A stretch of DNA of 64,000 nucleotides from Muribaculum sp. An289 (GTDB lineage: Bacteria; Bacteroidota; Bacteroidia; Bacteroidales; UBA932). Shown here in pieces: positions 26,429-32,869 of the stretch. Position 1 is the stretch's first letter. Every line of letters begins with the position of its first letter. The notes under the pieces are model-generated. The model saw nothing but the letters and a program-made list of their open reading frames with translations. It was not told the origin of the DNA and did not search any database. Where the stretch lies: contig NZ_NFIV01000001.1 of the NCBI RefSeq assembly GCF_002159555.1, forward strand, positions 248,001 through 312,000, given 5' to 3'. The position numbers were made by a program, and so were the translations under genes.

Positions 26429-27055
26429 TTATTTTCTATGGGAAGACTTTTCAAGAGCAGTACGGATATAGGTACCAAGGGTTATCCTGTCCGTGACTCC
26501 GAGCTTTTTCCTGATGCGGCTGTCGATATTGTAATGGCCTCCACGCTCCAAAAATGCGCCTATGTCCTTGCCGCGCAATCCTAAGGCATACAGGCAGCAA
26601 TAACCCGCCTCCCATTCCGTAAGGCCCTTGCTTTTAAGAAGCCCTATGAAATCCGGATGGAGCTTCAGATACTGATGATACGTATCGTGCAAGAACTTCT
26701 CCTTGTCCGACACGTATGAAAACAGCTCATTCTTCACATCGTCCGACAATACATCCTCTTTGCCGGATACAGCGGAAAGGAGGATTTTGTCCAGAAGCTT
26801 CAAACGTTCCGTCAGGACCGAGACAGTCTCCTCCTCTTTAACGTCCTGGCGGATATACGGCTTTCCGAGCACCTTATATATAAAAGCATTGTCGGCTTCT
26901 ATACGCGAAGAAATCCACTTGGACAGCTTACTGTCCCTGCTTTTACGCCGGAGCATGGAATACCGCACGATGAAGACACCTGCCACTACGGCCAGGACGG
27001 CTATCACGGCTGCCAGACACAATATTATACGGATATATTGCGGCTCCTCCATCAC
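26429..27055 (-). CDS. Membrane-anchored LuxR-type HTH protein
   Basis: 208 residues. One N-terminal transmembrane helix (IILCLAAVIAVLAVVAGVFIV, about 10-30), a basic stop-transfer, then a helical linker. The C-terminal segment about 145-200 (LTEWEAGYCCLYALGLRGKDIGAFL...RIRKKLGVTDRITLGTYI) has the layout of a GerE/LuxR helix-turn-helix as found at the end of Bacteroidales TPR regulators, but here the sensory part is missing. The gene starts three bases after the stop of the RND fusion gene, so it is probably part of that efflux operon and may regulate it; this is inference. Confidence 0.65.
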   Translation of the reverse strand: MMEEPQYIRIILCLAAVIAVLAVVAGVFIVRYSMLRRKSRDSKLSKWISSRIEADNAFIYKVLGKPYIRQDVKEEETVSVLTERLKLLDKILLSAVSGKEDVLSDDVKNELFSYVSDKEKFLHDTYHQYLKLHPDFIGLLKSKGLTEWEAGYCCLYALGLRGKDIGAFLERGGHYNIDSRIRKKLGVTDRITLGTYIRTALEKSSHRK

Positions 27056-27058
27056 ATG

Positions 27059-30000
27059 TCACTTGTCCTGTCCGTCGTCCTGCACGTCCTGCTTGTCCTG
27101 TTTGTCCTGTTTGTCCTGTTTGTCCTGTTTTTTCTGCTCTTCGAATTTCACAGGTTCGTAATTCCAGCCGCCTCCGAGAGCCTTGTAAAGCTCTACAAAC
27201 GCGAGATATTCGTTCAGGATGGCGTTGCTGTAATTGACCTCGGCATCGAAATACTGCCTCTGCGCGTCCAGAAGGTCGAGATACATGATATCCCCGTTTA
27301 TATAACGTAATCTCGCCAGTTCGAGATACTTGTCGGTAGCTTCGAAGAAACTGCGCTGCAAACCGGCGCTGCGATGGGCATTGTCATAATTGATTATCGC
27401 ATCGTTCACTTCCTTGAACGCCGTAAGGACACATTTTTCATACTCCAACCTGGCTTGGTCGAAGGCCGCTATCTCGGCTTCATATTTGGCCTTTTTCTTT
27501 CCGAAAGAAAAAATAGGCGAGGTCAGGTTGCCGAGAATATAAAGGTAAGGGGAACTGAAAAGCCCCTCGAATGAATTGTTCTCCAACGGGCCGGAAAGAC
27601 TGAACACCAGGCGCGGGAAACGGTCCGCCCAGGCTATGCCCACGGCGGCCTCTGCCGCATCCATATTGCGTTCCGCCATGCGGATGTCGGGACGACGGAG
27701 CAGAAGTTCGGACGGCAAGCCTACCGGGGTTTCCTTTGGAAGGATGATATTGTCGAAGGAATCGCGCCTTTCCACCTTGCCCGGGAACTCTCCTGCAAGC
27801 AGGGCTATCTGACTTTCTTTCTGTGCTATGCGTGTTTCCAAATCAGGTATGAGGGTGGCCGCACTTGCCAGTTCCACCTTCGCCTGCTGGTATGGAATCT
27901 CCGAAGTAAGTCCGGCCTCGAAACGCAACTGGGCCTGATGTATCGCCTCACGCCGCGTATCAAGGGTATGGGTGACGATTTCCAGTTCCTTGTCGAGAGC
28001 CACGAGTTCGAAATAAGCCTTGGCCACCTCCGAAACGAGGGTCATTTCCATCGCCCTCCGAGCCTCGACGGCGGAAAGATACTCGGAAATACCTTGTTTG
28101 CGGCCCCAGCGAAGGCTGCCCCACAAGTCTATCTCCCATTCCAGTTCCAGCTTCAGACCTATTTCGGAATCGACATTCCTCGATTCCCCGGCATAATTCA
28201 TCTCTTCACGGTCGGCGTAGGCCGTCGCCCCGAGGGAAGGCCACAGGCCCGCATTGTCTATGCGGTACATATTGCGCATCTCCTCGACACGGGCGGCTGC
28301 CGACAAGATGTCCTTGTTGTTTTCAAGGACCTTCCCGATAAGGTTTACCAAGGTCGAGTCCGTATAAACGTTCCACCATTCCATGTCCGCAAGTGTCAGG
28401 GAATCCGTATGGCCCGGAACTATTTCCTCCGGCATGTCCAGCTGTGGCTCCACGCAACGCTTCATGGACGAGCATGACGAAAGGCCTATGCTGGCGACGA
28501 GAAATACGGCGACAGTCGCGACTCCGCGCGAAATATTTTTCTTCACGGTGCCTTTCCTGGATGAAAACCTGTCCTTTATCTTATATATCATCACAAAGAA
28601 GAACGGCACGAATATGATACCTATCAGGATGGCCACTATCATGCCGCAGAACAATCCGAGCGAAATGTTCCTGCTGCTTTCCGAACTCGGGCCGTTGGCA
28701 AACACCAAAGGAAGCATGCCGAGTATGAAGGCAAGCGAGGTCATGACTATAGGCCTGAACCTCATGTGCGCCGCACGGAGGGCCGAATCCACTATCTCAT
28801 GGCCGGATTCCACCTCCTTTTTGGCAAATTCCACAATCAATATGGCATTCTTCGCGACAAGGCCTATCAGCACGACAAGGCCTATCTGGAAATAGATATT
28901 GCTGTCATAACCGAAGATGAACACACCGAGAAAGGCTCCGAGGGCGGCCACAGGCATTGAAAGCAGCACCGCCAACGGCACAGACCAGCTTTCGTACTGT
29001 GCGGCAAGGAACAGGAAGACAAAGAGCATGGCAAGACCGAGAATCAGCCCTGTCTGTCCACCTTCCTTCTTCTCCTGATACGAAAGTCCGCTCCATTCAA
29101 CCCCTATATTCGAAGGCAGGTGCTTGTCGGCAATATCCTCAAGCACGGCCATCGCGACACCGGAACTGTATCCCGGTGCGGCCGAACCCGACACCGTCGC
29201 CGAATTGAACATGTTGAAACGCTTGATAGTTCCCGGGCCCGTCGTATACGAAGTCGTACCGAGGGTGGTTACAGGAAGCATCACGCCCCCGTTCCCTCTG
29301 ACGAAGAACAGGTTCAGGTTGTCCCTGTATGCCCTGTAAGGCGCATCCGCCTGGATGTACACCCTGTACACGCGGTTGAACATGTTGAAGTCATTGACAT
29401 ATACCGACCCAGTGAAAGCCTTCATAGTGGAGAAAATATCCGACATGGAAACTCCAAGAAGCTGCGCCTTGTCCCTGTCCACGTCCAGATACAGTTGCGG
29501 AATATCCGCCTGCATGTTGGAAGACACGCCGGCAAGCTCCTTTCGCTGAGAGGCATAGAACAGCATCGTATCCACAGCTCCCTGCAAATCTTCGTAAGAA
29601 GCGTCCCCGCGGGCCTCCAGAACCATCTCGAAACCTCCCGAAGAACCCATTCCCGGAATCACCGGAGGCGTATTGAGGAAGACCCTGCTTTCAGGATATT
29701 TTTCAAATTCGCTCCGCACCTGTTCCATCACATCCCGGATATTACGCTGCTCCCTCTCTTTCCATGGCTTCATTATCACGGTCAGCTGGCTTGCGGACTG
29801 GTTGGTCCCCGTACGAGGGCTCGAACCCGTCACATTGAGCACATATTCTATATTCGGATTGGACATGAGATAGTCCATGGCCCTTTCAGTAACTTTCCTC
29901 GTGCGCTCGATCGAAGCCCCTTCGGGGAGCCTCAACTCCACTGTAAAATATCCCTGGTCCTCTTCAGGAATGAAGCTGGAAGGGATGAACTCCATGAAAA

Positions 30001-31651
30001 GCACGATTGCGACGATTATTCCGCCCAAGGAAATCAGCATGGCTTTGGAATGGGATATCGCCCATCTTATCCCCCGCCCGTAAGCACGGTTCCCCTTGGC
30101 CAGCAGGACGTTTATATAACGGAAAAATTTGTTTTTCTTCCCTTTGGCCGGCCTCAGGACTATGGCGCAAAGCGCCGGGCTCAGAGTCAGGGCGACGATT
30201 GTCGAAATGATGACCGAAACCGCAATCGTTATGGTAAACTGCCTGTAAAGCTGTCCGGTGATGCCCGAAAGGAAGCTCACGGGAACGAAAACGGCACAGA
30301 GCACCATCGATGTGGCTATCAAGGCGCCGCTCAATCCGCCCATGGCCTTCTTCGTAGCCTCATACGGGGACAGCCCTTCCTTCTCCATAATCCTCTCGAC
30401 ATTCTCGACAACGACTATGGCATCATCCACCACTATTCCTATGGCCAGGATAAGGCCGAGAAGGGTCATCAGGTTCAGGGTGAAGCCGAATACAAGCATC
30501 ACCCCGAATGTTCCGATAAGCGAGATAGGCACGGCCACGACCGGTATCAAAGTCGCCCTCCAGCTTTGCAGCGAAAGGAAAACGACAATGATTACGAGAA
30601 GCAGGGCCTCGAAAAGAGTCCGGTAGACATGGTGTATGGACTGCGATATGTACTGGGTCATGTCGAACGGAATATTGTACGACATACCGTCAGGAAAACT
30701 CTGGCTTATGGCCTCCATCTCCGCCTTCACGTTTTCAGCGACCTCGATGGCATTCGCCCCGGGGAGCATATACACATCGAGCACGGCTGCATTGCCTCCG
30801 TTGATACCGCTCTCGGTATTGTATGACTGCGCTTCGAGAGAAACACGCGCCACATCCTTCATCCTGATTATCGCCCCGTCAGGACTTGCACGGAGGACAA
30901 TGTTTTCAAAATCCGTCACCGTGGACAGCCTCCCCCGGGTGGTTATCGGAACGGTTATCTCAACACCGCTCTCCGACGGGGCGCGACCCAACTGTCCTGC
31001 GGCAGCCTCCCTGTTCTGGTCGCGGAGGGCCTTCTGGATATCCTGGACGGTAAGCCCGAGGCTCGCCAGCCTGTCGGGCATCACCCATATCTGCATTGCA
31101 TAATAACGGCTTCCTATGTTGGAAACACGTCCTACCCCGGGAACACGCCTGAGCATGTCGAGCACATTGAGTGTCGCATAGTTGCTGAGGTATATTTCAT
31201 CGAATTTGGGGTCATTCGAAAGAAGGGTCACCGTCAGAAGTTTGCTCGAAGACTGCTTCTCGACGGAGATACCGTCCTGGACGACCTCCGCCGGCAAACG
31301 CGACTCGGCGAGTTTAACCCTGTTCTGAATCTCGACGGCGGCCAAATCCGGGTCGGAAGATATGTCGAAAGTGACATTCAGCGTAAAACTTCCCGTATTG
31401 GTACTCGAGGATTCCATGTAAAGCATTCCCGGAGTACCGTTCAATTCCTGTTCTATAGGGGTTGCCACGGCCTGAGACACCGTAAGGGCGCTCGCCCCGG
31501 GATAGGAAGCCGTAACCCTCACCACCGGAGGGATAATCTGCGGATACTGGTCGACAGGAAGCATGATCAACCCGATACATCCGACTATTACGATTATTAT
31601 CGATATTACGGCGGAGAATATCGGCCTATCTATAAAGAAATCAGCTTTCAT
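27059..31651 (-). CDS. RND efflux permease fused to an outer-membrane channel (AcrB-NodT/TolC fusion)
   Basis: 1530 residues in one open frame. Residues 1-1035 form an HAE1-type RND permease: MKADFFIDRPIFSAV start, porter domain with YPGASALTVSQAV, GIVVDDAIVVVENVER with the TM4 Asp pair, and GLVAKNAILIVEFAK with the TM10 lysine. Residues 1036-1530 form a complete NodT-type outer-membrane factor, including an internal lipoprotein signal ending IGLSSC (Cys1060) and the two TolC-like repeats (EEMRNMYRIDNAGLWPSLGA..., AEAAVGIAWADRFPRLVF). In-frame GTG at 28546, preceded by AGGAAAGG, could be a separate start for the channel. The C-terminus ends in Lys-Gln-Asp repeats. The adaptor gene lies six bases upstream. 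Expected role: tripartite export of drugs or other amphiphiles. Confidence 0.9.
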   Translation of the reverse strand: MKADFFIDRPIFSAVISIIIVIVGCIGLIMLPVDQYPQIIPPVVRVTASYPGASALTVSQAVATPIEQELNGTPGMLYMESSSTNTGSFTLNVTFDISSDPDLAAVEIQNRVKLAESRLPAEVVQDGISVEKQSSSKLLTVTLLSNDPKFDEIYLSNYATLNVLDMLRRVPGVGRVSNIGSRYYAMQIWVMPDRLASLGLTVQDIQKALRDQNREAAAGQLGRAPSESGVEITVPITTRGRLSTVTDFENIVLRASPDGAIIRMKDVARVSLEAQSYNTESGINGGNAAVLDVYMLPGANAIEVAENVKAEMEAISQSFPDGMSYNIPFDMTQYISQSIHHVYRTLFEALLLVIIVVFLSLQSWRATLIPVVAVPISLIGTFGVMLVFGFTLNLMTLLGLILAIGIVVDDAIVVVENVERIMEKEGLSPYEATKKAMGGLSGALIATSMVLCAVFVPVSFLSGITGQLYRQFTITIAVSVIISTIVALTLSPALCAIVLRPAKGKKNKFFRYINVLLAKGNRAYGRGIRWAISHSKAMLISLGGIIVAIVLFMEFIPSSFIPEEDQGYFTVELRLPEGASIERTRKVTERAMDYLMSNPNIEYVLNVTGSSPRTGTNQSASQLTVIMKPWKEREQRNIRDVMEQVRSEFEKYPESRVFLNTPPVIPGMGSSGGFEMVLEARGDASYEDLQGAVDTMLFYASQRKELAGVSSNMQADIPQLYLDVDRDKAQLLGVSMSDIFSTMKAFTGSVYVNDFNMFNRVYRVYIQADAPYRAYRDNLNLFFVRGNGGVMLPVTTLGTTSYTTGPGTIKRFNMFNSATVSGSAAPGYSSGVAMAVLEDIADKHLPSNIGVEWSGLSYQEKKEGGQTGLILGLAMLFVFLFLAAQYESWSVPLAVLLSMPVAALGAFLGVFIFGYDSNIYFQIGLVVLIGLVAKNAILIVEFAKKEVESGHEIVDSALRAAHMRFRPIVMTSLAFILGMLPLVFANGPSSESSRNISLGLFCGMIVAILIGIIFVPFFFVMIYKIKDRFSSRKGTVKKNISRGVATVAVFLVASIGLSSCSSMKRCVEPQLDMPEEIVPGHTDSLTLADMEWWNVYTDSTLVNLIGKVLENNKDILSAAARVEEMRNMYRIDNAGLWPSLGATAYADREEMNYAGESRNVDSEIGLKLELEWEIDLWGSLRWGRKQGISEYLSAVEARRAMEMTLVSEVAKAYFELVALDKELEIVTHTLDTRREAIHQAQLRFEAGLTSEIPYQQAKVELASAATLIPDLETRIAQKESQIALLAGEFPGKVERRDSFDNIILPKETPVGLPSELLLRRPDIRMAERNMDAAEAAVGIAWADRFPRLVFSLSGPLENNSFEGLFSSPYLYILGNLTSPIFSFGKKKAKYEAEIAAFDQARLEYEKCVLTAFKEVNDAIINYDNAHRSAGLQRSFFEATDKYLELARLRYINGDIMYLDLLDAQRQYFDAEVNYSNAILNEYLAFVELYKALGGGWNYEPVKFEEQKKQDKQDKQDKQDKQDVQDDGQDK
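27080..27135 (-). repeat. 9-bp tandem repeat coding KQD repeats
   Basis: TTTGTCCTG is repeated about four times in perfect tandem (imperfect copies on either side), giving the (K)QDKQDKQD tail of the fusion protein. The repeat is in phase with codons (nine bases), so copy changes would alter tail length without frameshift. Confidence 0.85.
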
Positions 31652-31657
31652 ACCTCA

Positions 31658-32869
31658 TCAGTCTTCTATGGGTTCTACCACCGTTACCTTCTGACCGTGG
31701 GTCAGTTTATGGAAGCCTTCCGTAACTATCCTCTCGTTAGGCACGAGACCGCGTTCCACGACAGTCCTGTTCCCTACTTCCGGGCCGAGTTCGATAAAAC
31801 GCTTTTCGACTTCGCTGTCAGGCTGTACGACAAAGATATAGGCTCCGCCCTTCTCTATCACTATGGCCTTGTTCGGGACCGTCACCGCATCCTTACGGAC
31901 ATCGAGGAGGAGTTTCACCCTTGTCGTCTGTCCCGGAAGCAATATCCTGTCCGGATTCGGCATTTCCGCCCTTACGGAAAACGTACCGGTATTGGGATCT
32001 ACCTGAGGGTCGGCAAAATCTACGATACCCTCCAGCGGATATACGGTATTGTCAGGAAGGGTTATGGTTATGTACGGGTCCCATGTTCTGGTGCTGTCCT
32101 TCTGTCCAAGGTTCACATTCCTGGCCTTTGAACGGAGATAATCCAGTCCCGTCATACTGAAATCGACCCTCACCGTGTCGCTTTTCACAATCGTGGCGAG
32201 CAACGACTTTCCTCCCGGGCCCACAAGGGTACCTATATCCACGTTCCTCTCTGAAATGAACCCCGATATCGGAGACTGCACGGCGGTGTATTCCAACGCC
32301 AGACGGGCCTGCGCAAGGTCGGCCTCGCTCATCTCCACATCGGCCGTGGCACTTTCGTAAGAAGCGATGGCATTTTCAAGGTCGAGCTGGCTGGCGGCAT
32401 TCTGCTCGTAAAGCGGCCTGATGCGGTTCAAATCCCTTTCCGCTTTCAGGGCCAGCGCCTTGTCCTTGTTCAGCTGGGCCTTCGCCTTATCCACCCTCGC
32501 ACGGTAAAGCCTCGGGTCTATGATGAAAAGGGTCTGTCCTTTTTCGATGTACGTACCTTCTTCGAAAAGCATCTGTTCGAGATAGCCTTCGACCCTGGCA
32601 CGCACCTCGACGAATTGTTGTGCCCTGATACGCCCGACATACTCTCCGTAAATCTCGACATCCCTTGTACCGACGGTTTCCGTAACGACGGTAGGATATA
32701 CCGGAGGGGCAGGCTTCGGCCTCGTCAGCAGACAAATGGCCGTAATGATTCCGGCGGTTACTATCAGTATGGCAATCCATGCAACGAGGCTCACCTTTTT
32801 CAAACCGAAGGCGATTTTCTTAATAAAACTGTTTATCGCTTCGAAAAAACCCGCTATCGTAAATCTCAT
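31658..32869 (-). CDS. RND periplasmic adaptor (AcrA/MexA family), membrane anchored
   Basis: 403 residues. Unlike the adaptor at 1.3 kb it has no lipobox; instead residues about 30-48 (AWIAILIVTAGIITAICLL) form a signal anchor. The lipoyl half motif VEVRARVEGYLEQMLFEEGTYIEKGQ, a long alpha-hairpin (about 110-190) and second half VQSPISGFISERNVDIGTLV follow, then the beta-barrel (ITLPDNTVYPLEGIVDFADPQVD) and C-terminal AIVIEKGGAYIFVV. It begins the operon: adaptor, permease-channel fusion, LuxR-type protein, with gaps of six and three bases. Confidence 0.93.
   Translation of the reverse strand: MRFTIAGFFEAINSFIKKIAFGLKKVSLVAWIAILIVTAGIITAICLLTRPKPAPPVYPTVVTETVGTRDVEIYGEYVGRIRAQQFVEVRARVEGYLEQMLFEEGTYIEKGQTLFIIDPRLYRARVDKAKAQLNKDKALALKAERDLNRIRPLYEQNAASQLDLENAIASYESATADVEMSEADLAQARLALEYTAVQSPISGFISERNVDIGTLVGPGGKSLLATIVKSDTVRVDFSMTGLDYLRSKARNVNLGQKDSTRTWDPYITITLPDNTVYPLEGIVDFADPQVDPNTGTFSVRAEMPNPDRILLPGQTTRVKLLLDVRKDAVTVPNKAIVIEKGGAYIFVVQPDSEVEKRFIELGPEVGNRTVVERGLVPNERIVTEGFHKLTHGQKVTVVEPIED

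Follow-up and report, generated by a model that had tools for sequence, protein, structure and literature searches.

OprM, the channel of the MexAB-OprM efflux pump, has a lipidated N-terminus at the outer membrane, and HAE1 permeases have, by established topology, a cytoplasmic C-terminus. A polytopic inner-membrane protein joined in one frame to an exported partner is known from the cytochrome b-c1 polyprotein of Bradyrhizobium, reportedly described by Thony-Meyer et al. in 1991. Signal peptidase I cuts this fbcH polyprotein at an internal signal peptide, and neither product leaves the inner membrane. In Bacteroidota, permeases of the CusA/CzcA type (TIGR00914) are often fused to TolC-type channels. 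A natural fusion of an RND permease to an outer-membrane channel (RND-OMF), or cleavage at an internal lipobox, was not reported in the titles and abstract openings of the literature matches listed, nor is either mentioned in the available portions of PMC8277102, PMC4827864, PMC9360617, PMC5837995, PMC3675766, PMC6976685 and PMC6256036.

The locus analysed here lies in a window of 64,000 nucleotides (the whole stretch of DNA that was analysed), where a frame of 1530 codons without a stop (27059-31651, minus strand) runs from an HAE1 RND permease into a NodT/OprM-type channel. It is quite probable, in our judgement, that two subunits of one tripartite efflux pump are made from this fused gene as a polyprotein precursor, with the retained lipobox as a working cleavage site.

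The fused frame and its parts

The features of the locus are as follows, in their order along the minus strand.

31658..32869, minus strand: periplasmic adaptor (MFP, TIGR01730), 6 nt upstream of the fused ORF on the same strand
27059..31651, minus strand: fused ORF, 1530 aa; HAE1 RND permease, internal lipoprotein signal and NodT/OprM-type channel
28586..31642, minus strand: HAE1 permease domain (Pfam ACR_tran, residues 4-1022)
28475..28585, minus strand: junction, residues 1023-1059; basic cytoplasmic linker, then a hydrophobic internal signal segment ending IGLSS
28544..28546, minus strand: in-frame GTG (Val1036), candidate second start, at -24 relative to the Cys
28472..28474, minus strand: Cys1060, predicted lipidated +1 residue after signal peptidase II cleavage; invariant in 39/39 aligned fused homologues
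27062..28474, minus strand: predicted mature channel, residues 1060-1530; 53.7 kDa, OprM-like

The permease part has full-length matches above the curated cut-offs for HAE1 RND permeases, to NCBIfam NF000282 with 1303 bits (cut-off 1250, residues 4-1023) and to TIGR00915 with 1184 bits (cut-off 940, residues 3-1035). Two motifs of the proton relay, containing VDDAIVV and AKNAILIVEF, start at residues 405 and 930. Against TIGR00914, the model for CusA/CzcA-type HME permeases, the protein scores 343 bits, below the cut-off of 701. The channel part is matched over its full length and above the curated cut-off by TIGR01845 (outer_NodT; 303 bits, cut-off 210), with residues 1052-1495 covering positions 2-460 of the 460 in the profile, and it has an OprM fold. 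Pfam OEP matches twice in the C-terminal part of the fused protein, while OprM is both the nearest solved relative of the channel by sequence (E 8.7e-68) and the first-ranked Foldseek match to the channel model (2.9e-23). The AlphaFold model, which spans residues 1000-1530, places helices at about 1001-1032 and 1043-1063 ahead of an OprM-like fold; its mean pLDDT is 75 and low in the joint, the geometry of which was given no weight.

These profile matches and the 1530 unbroken codons bear out the preliminary description, in which an HAE1 permease frame stayed open into a complete NodT channel. The lipoprotein signal that it placed at the junction, ending IGLSSC at Cys1060, is likewise read directly in the joint, where MIYKIKDRFSSRKGTVKKNISRGVATVAVFLVASIGLSS is followed by the Cys at residue 1060, and the in-frame GTG that it pointed out at 28546 is Val1036, with AGGAAAGGCACC before it. 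Its figure of about 165 kDa for the chain is to be corrected: the calculated mass of the precursor is 169.0 kDa, and the predicted products are of 115.4 kDa (permease) and 53.7 kDa (channel).

At the distal end of the gene (window positions 27059-27135), the channel C-terminus is in this genome a short Q-D-K triplet repeat, encoded by a 9-nt DNA repeat; the fused frames of the sister species are shorter, at 1507 and 1512 codons. An ORF of 208 aa with an N-terminal hydrophobic segment (26429-27055, minus strand) begins 3 nt after the fused gene. A Pfam search up to E 1 gave no match to it, and in a comparison of 120 loci it was found in Merdivivens only, with 57-69% identity outside this genome.

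Fused homologues and conservation of the joint

A permease match was found at 117 loci (the window's own included), comprising 52 fused, 62 split, two without a channel match and one broken; the last is L065, from a MAG, whose permease frame breaks off at codon 430 and which was excluded from the counts. The fused loci are not independent, with three identical pairs and the window among the 52, and many were drawn by a search with a fused query, which biases the sample; in an evenly drawn sample of 295 genomes of the order, 30 loci reach 57% identity or more, and five of them, one being the window's own, are fused. Fused rows come from Tannerellaceae/Parabacteroides (18), Cryptobacteroides and kin (20), Merdivivens (5, from three species), Paraprevotella (5) and Muribaculaceae/Porphyromonadaceae (3), with one further single row, and a match to the adaptor is present at 52/52 fused loci. 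Carriers of a fused gene include the cultured commensals Parabacteroides goldsteinii (L057) and Paraprevotella xylaniphila (L071). Both of the other genomes of the genus that were searched carry the same unbroken frame, at 93% identity and with a differing linker. We take this genus to be Merdivivens, since the sister species share identical permeases with Candidatus Merdivivens pullicola and Candidatus Merdivivens pullistercoris. The window's own genome also holds a split paralogue, 34% identical.

The internal signal has a basic n-region, a hydrophobic segment and a lipobox with its Cys, and it is located not at the N-terminus of the chain but within it, at residues of about 1036-1059 of 1530. 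The Cys is retained in 52/52 fused loci, and in the 39/39 aligned fused joints it is the sole invariant column from the end of TM12 to a Pro in the mature channel. Behind the extra hydrophobic segment, 52/52 fused proteins have a lipobox-like site by a relaxed pattern, which admits N and W and was loosened after the first scoring of the joints, and 49/52 have one by a stricter pattern, compared with 5/659 of the other hydrophobic segments of the same proteins by either. A full PROSITE-like lipobox pattern fits 48/52 fused joints. Sites in which A, G, S or T directly precedes Q ([AGST]/Q, the slash marking the position of the cut) occur in only 5/52 of the HAE1 fusions. Unusual residues are seen in a few joints, with Asn before the junction Cys (LWNC) in a Muribaculaceae MAG (L064) and Asn or Trp at -2 in L037 and L042.

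The linker preceding this signal carries a net charge of +1 to +9 across fused loci, which is right for an N-in orientation. Its dN/dS is 0.05-0.26 in the 5/10 groups with computable dS, dS being saturated in 5/10 groups and above 1 in most others, while the rate is higher in the 20 codons that immediately precede the Cys (0.07-0.61). The corresponding values are 0.01-0.09 for the permease (10 groups) and 0.03-0.18 for the channel (8 groups). All of these values are rough; they come from ten hand-chosen groups, which make up 39/52 fused loci, and are given only for groups with computable dS. The joints come in 18 lengths, all in frame, which is partly by definition, as loci were called fused because their frame is open.

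An alternative that we regard as unlikely is that GTG 28546 acts as a second start, yielding a separate pro-lipoprotein channel of 56 kDa (54 kDa once processed), with the full-length fusion a minor by-product or inert. All three species of the genus retain an NTG-AAG pair (the second codon Lys) at -24 from the Cys, with GTG, TTG and TTG as the first codon, as expected for a working or recently lost start, and many split relatives have an M-K start at a similar distance. GTG and TTG are weak starts. Some ATG, GTG or TTG lies at -30 to -15 in 36/52 fused loci, but 41.9 would be expected from the same genes, and ATG alone occurs in 22/52 against 23.2 expected. In 16/52 loci this interval contains none of the three codons (Tannerellaceae 9/18, Paraprevotella 3/5, Cryptobacteroides 4/20, others 0/9), and in L035, L062, L069 and L071 none is present from TM12 to -12, with L071 having a GTG at -31, the last codon of TM12. 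A second start maintained across the whole family is therefore rejected, as start codons are at background level.

The remaining argument for initiation at this codon is AGGAAAGG, which stands upstream of GTG 28546. In the window, SD-like 4-mers precede 7/34 long ORFs against 5.2 expected, barely above chance, and PMC9976891 describes Bacteroidia ribosomes as unable to recognise SD sequences, naming rpsU of many Flavobacteriales as a special case. AGGAAAGG is for these reasons weak evidence for a start, and the Shine-Dalgarno support for Val1036 as an initiation codon is weak. The linker is moreover under purifying selection where this is measurable, which an unused read-through would not need. 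Low linker dN/dS, the invariant Cys and start codons at background together indicate that the joint evolves as translated sequence, in which the Cys and not the start codon is conserved. A residual second start may operate in the three species of this genus, and it would yield the same mature channel as cleavage.

Proposed processing of the fused chain

The preliminary description had argued that one chain is ill-suited to both membranes and that the lipobox is the key to this difficulty, which we uphold; of the two ways out that it offered, processing at Cys1060 or a second start, the former is favoured by a Cys kept at every fused locus next to start codons that are at background and, in 16/52, absent at -30 to -15. 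As read from the sequences, the frame is open, the site is retained and the start codon of the channel is dispensable in relatives, and from here we infer how the two pump parts would be inserted, lipidated, cleaved and sorted. The permease would insert with its usual 12 helices and its C-terminus in the cytoplasm, where the basic linker would remain. Given this basic linker and cytoplasmic end, the old signal peptide of the channel would enter the membrane as a 13th helix in the N-in/C-out orientation, thereby exporting the channel domain to the periplasm and exposing the lipobox on the periplasmic side of the membrane, the side on which Lgt and LspA work. Lgt would lipidate Cys1060 and LspA (signal peptidase II) would cut before it, giving a permease of about 115 kDa with a C-terminal helix remnant and a lipoprotein channel of about 54 kDa, which, once freed, would take the Lol route to the outer membrane. 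The fusion would set the two subunits at 1:1. Both Lgt (PF01790, 228 bits) and LspA (PF01252, 113 bits) are encoded in the genome. LspA is not known to accept substrates that lie behind twelve membrane helices, and the conserved Cys could reflect lipidation without cutting.

The CusA/CzcA-TolC fusions of Bacteroidota, to which the preliminary description had drawn attention, are confirmed, with the site kept there belonging to the other class of signal peptidase. Of 70 CusA-type loci, 52 are fused, namely 13/30 of those given by rank and 39/40 of those chosen for long frames. Their joints have a basic linker and a hydrophobic segment that ends in [AGST]/Q in 48/48 scored, compared with 56/614 other segments; this pattern was widened after the first scoring from A/Q, which alone is found in 42/48 joints versus 32/614 other segments. 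A lipobox was found in 0/48 of the scored joints. Of the 44 rows given an A/Q site at the first scoring, at least five lack a start codon at -32 to -12. Under the Bacteroidetes Q-rule (PMC5837995), a signal peptidase I site is expected to read [AGST]/Q. Each of the two fusion families thus retains a signal-peptidase site of its own class, a pattern difficult to account for without cutting of the chains.

This parallel also bears on an uncut chain, in which a 13-helix permease would keep the channel domain attached to it on the periplasmic side and would work at the inner membrane or in some new geometry. Such a chain agrees with a frame that is open in 52 loci and a linker that evolves as protein where measurable. 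However, the helix is separated from the OprM-like fold by a mere 25-30 residues or so, while the lipidated N-terminus of OprM is at the outer membrane, and if the linker were not cut, there would be no need for the lipobox Cys or, in the CusA fusions, for the [AGST]/Q site. Class-specific cleavage sites make little sense for an uncut helix, which again argues for cutting, and we consider the uncut chain very improbable. An assembly error, a missed stop or a decaying gene has a negligible probability: the assembly is in 36 contigs, which makes a local error possible a priori, but the fusion recurs with differing linkers in two sister species and in dozens of other genomes, isolates included, and its permease and channel have low dN/dS where computable. 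The missed frameshift between the parts that had earlier been raised is thus excluded, as is a sequencing artefact; the fused frame is real, conserved and recurrent.

Recurrence and comparison with known systems

We placed the fused and split labels on permease trees built with FastTree (116 rows) and by a quick IQ-TREE search (91 rows), which agree on the label changes. The label changes six times, and five of these changes are forced by well-supported branches. A single ancestral fusion is ruled out, as a topology that unites every fused row in one clade is rejected (p-AU 1e-5), while a tree in which Merdivivens and Cryptobacteroides are held together is 5.7 log units better (p-AU 0.62). Because these two groups may share one fusion event, the trees point to at least five fused/split changes rather than to six fusions, with gain and loss not told apart by the tree. 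The permease and channel genes overlap by 4 nt in 17/62 split loci (counted by hand from the list), a tight coupling from which fusion would be easy; the fusion probably arose from such tightly coupled genes. For the CusA-TolC tree (68 rows, mostly fused), only two changes of the fused label are needed.

Taken over both families, it seems fairly likely that these two-membrane pumps of Bacteroidota are made as polyproteins, the channel being freed by the signal peptidase of its class, LspA in HAE1-NodT fusions and signal peptidase I in CusA-TolC fusions (the latter then perhaps forming pyroglutamate), with the HAE1-NodT fusion having arisen repeatedly and the channel start codon being dispensable. 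If this holds, LspA would be able to cleave at a signal that lies inside a chain, after a membrane protein of 12 helices, and would thus be a polyprotein protease in addition to its work on N-terminal signals, one ORF would be seen to supply pump parts for two membranes, and database entries for "RND permeases" of some 1450-1530 aa may describe two proteins. The recurrent and parallel retention of two cleavage-site types makes polyprotein processing testable in cultured isolates.

Among known systems, MexAB-OprM and the split orthologues of Alistipes, Bacteroides and others share with this locus the order adaptor-permease-channel and a channel that is a NodT lipoprotein. They differ in having two genes and a channel with its own start codon. 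The fbcH polyprotein of B. japonicum resembles the window in fusing a polytopic inner-membrane protein to an exported partner, a likeness that lies in features of sequence: one frame, an inner-membrane partner and an internal signal with a conserved cleavage site. Whereas both fbcH products are found in the inner membrane, the predicted products of the window would go to two membranes, and the predicted enzyme is signal peptidase II. In the CusA/CzcA-TolC fusions, as in the window, an RND permease is followed in frame by a channel, with an internal hydrophobic segment and a retained signal-peptidase site. Their permease is of the HME type (TIGR00914), however, their site is of the signal peptidase I type with no lipobox, and their two label changes contrast with the at least five of the HAE1-NodT fusions.
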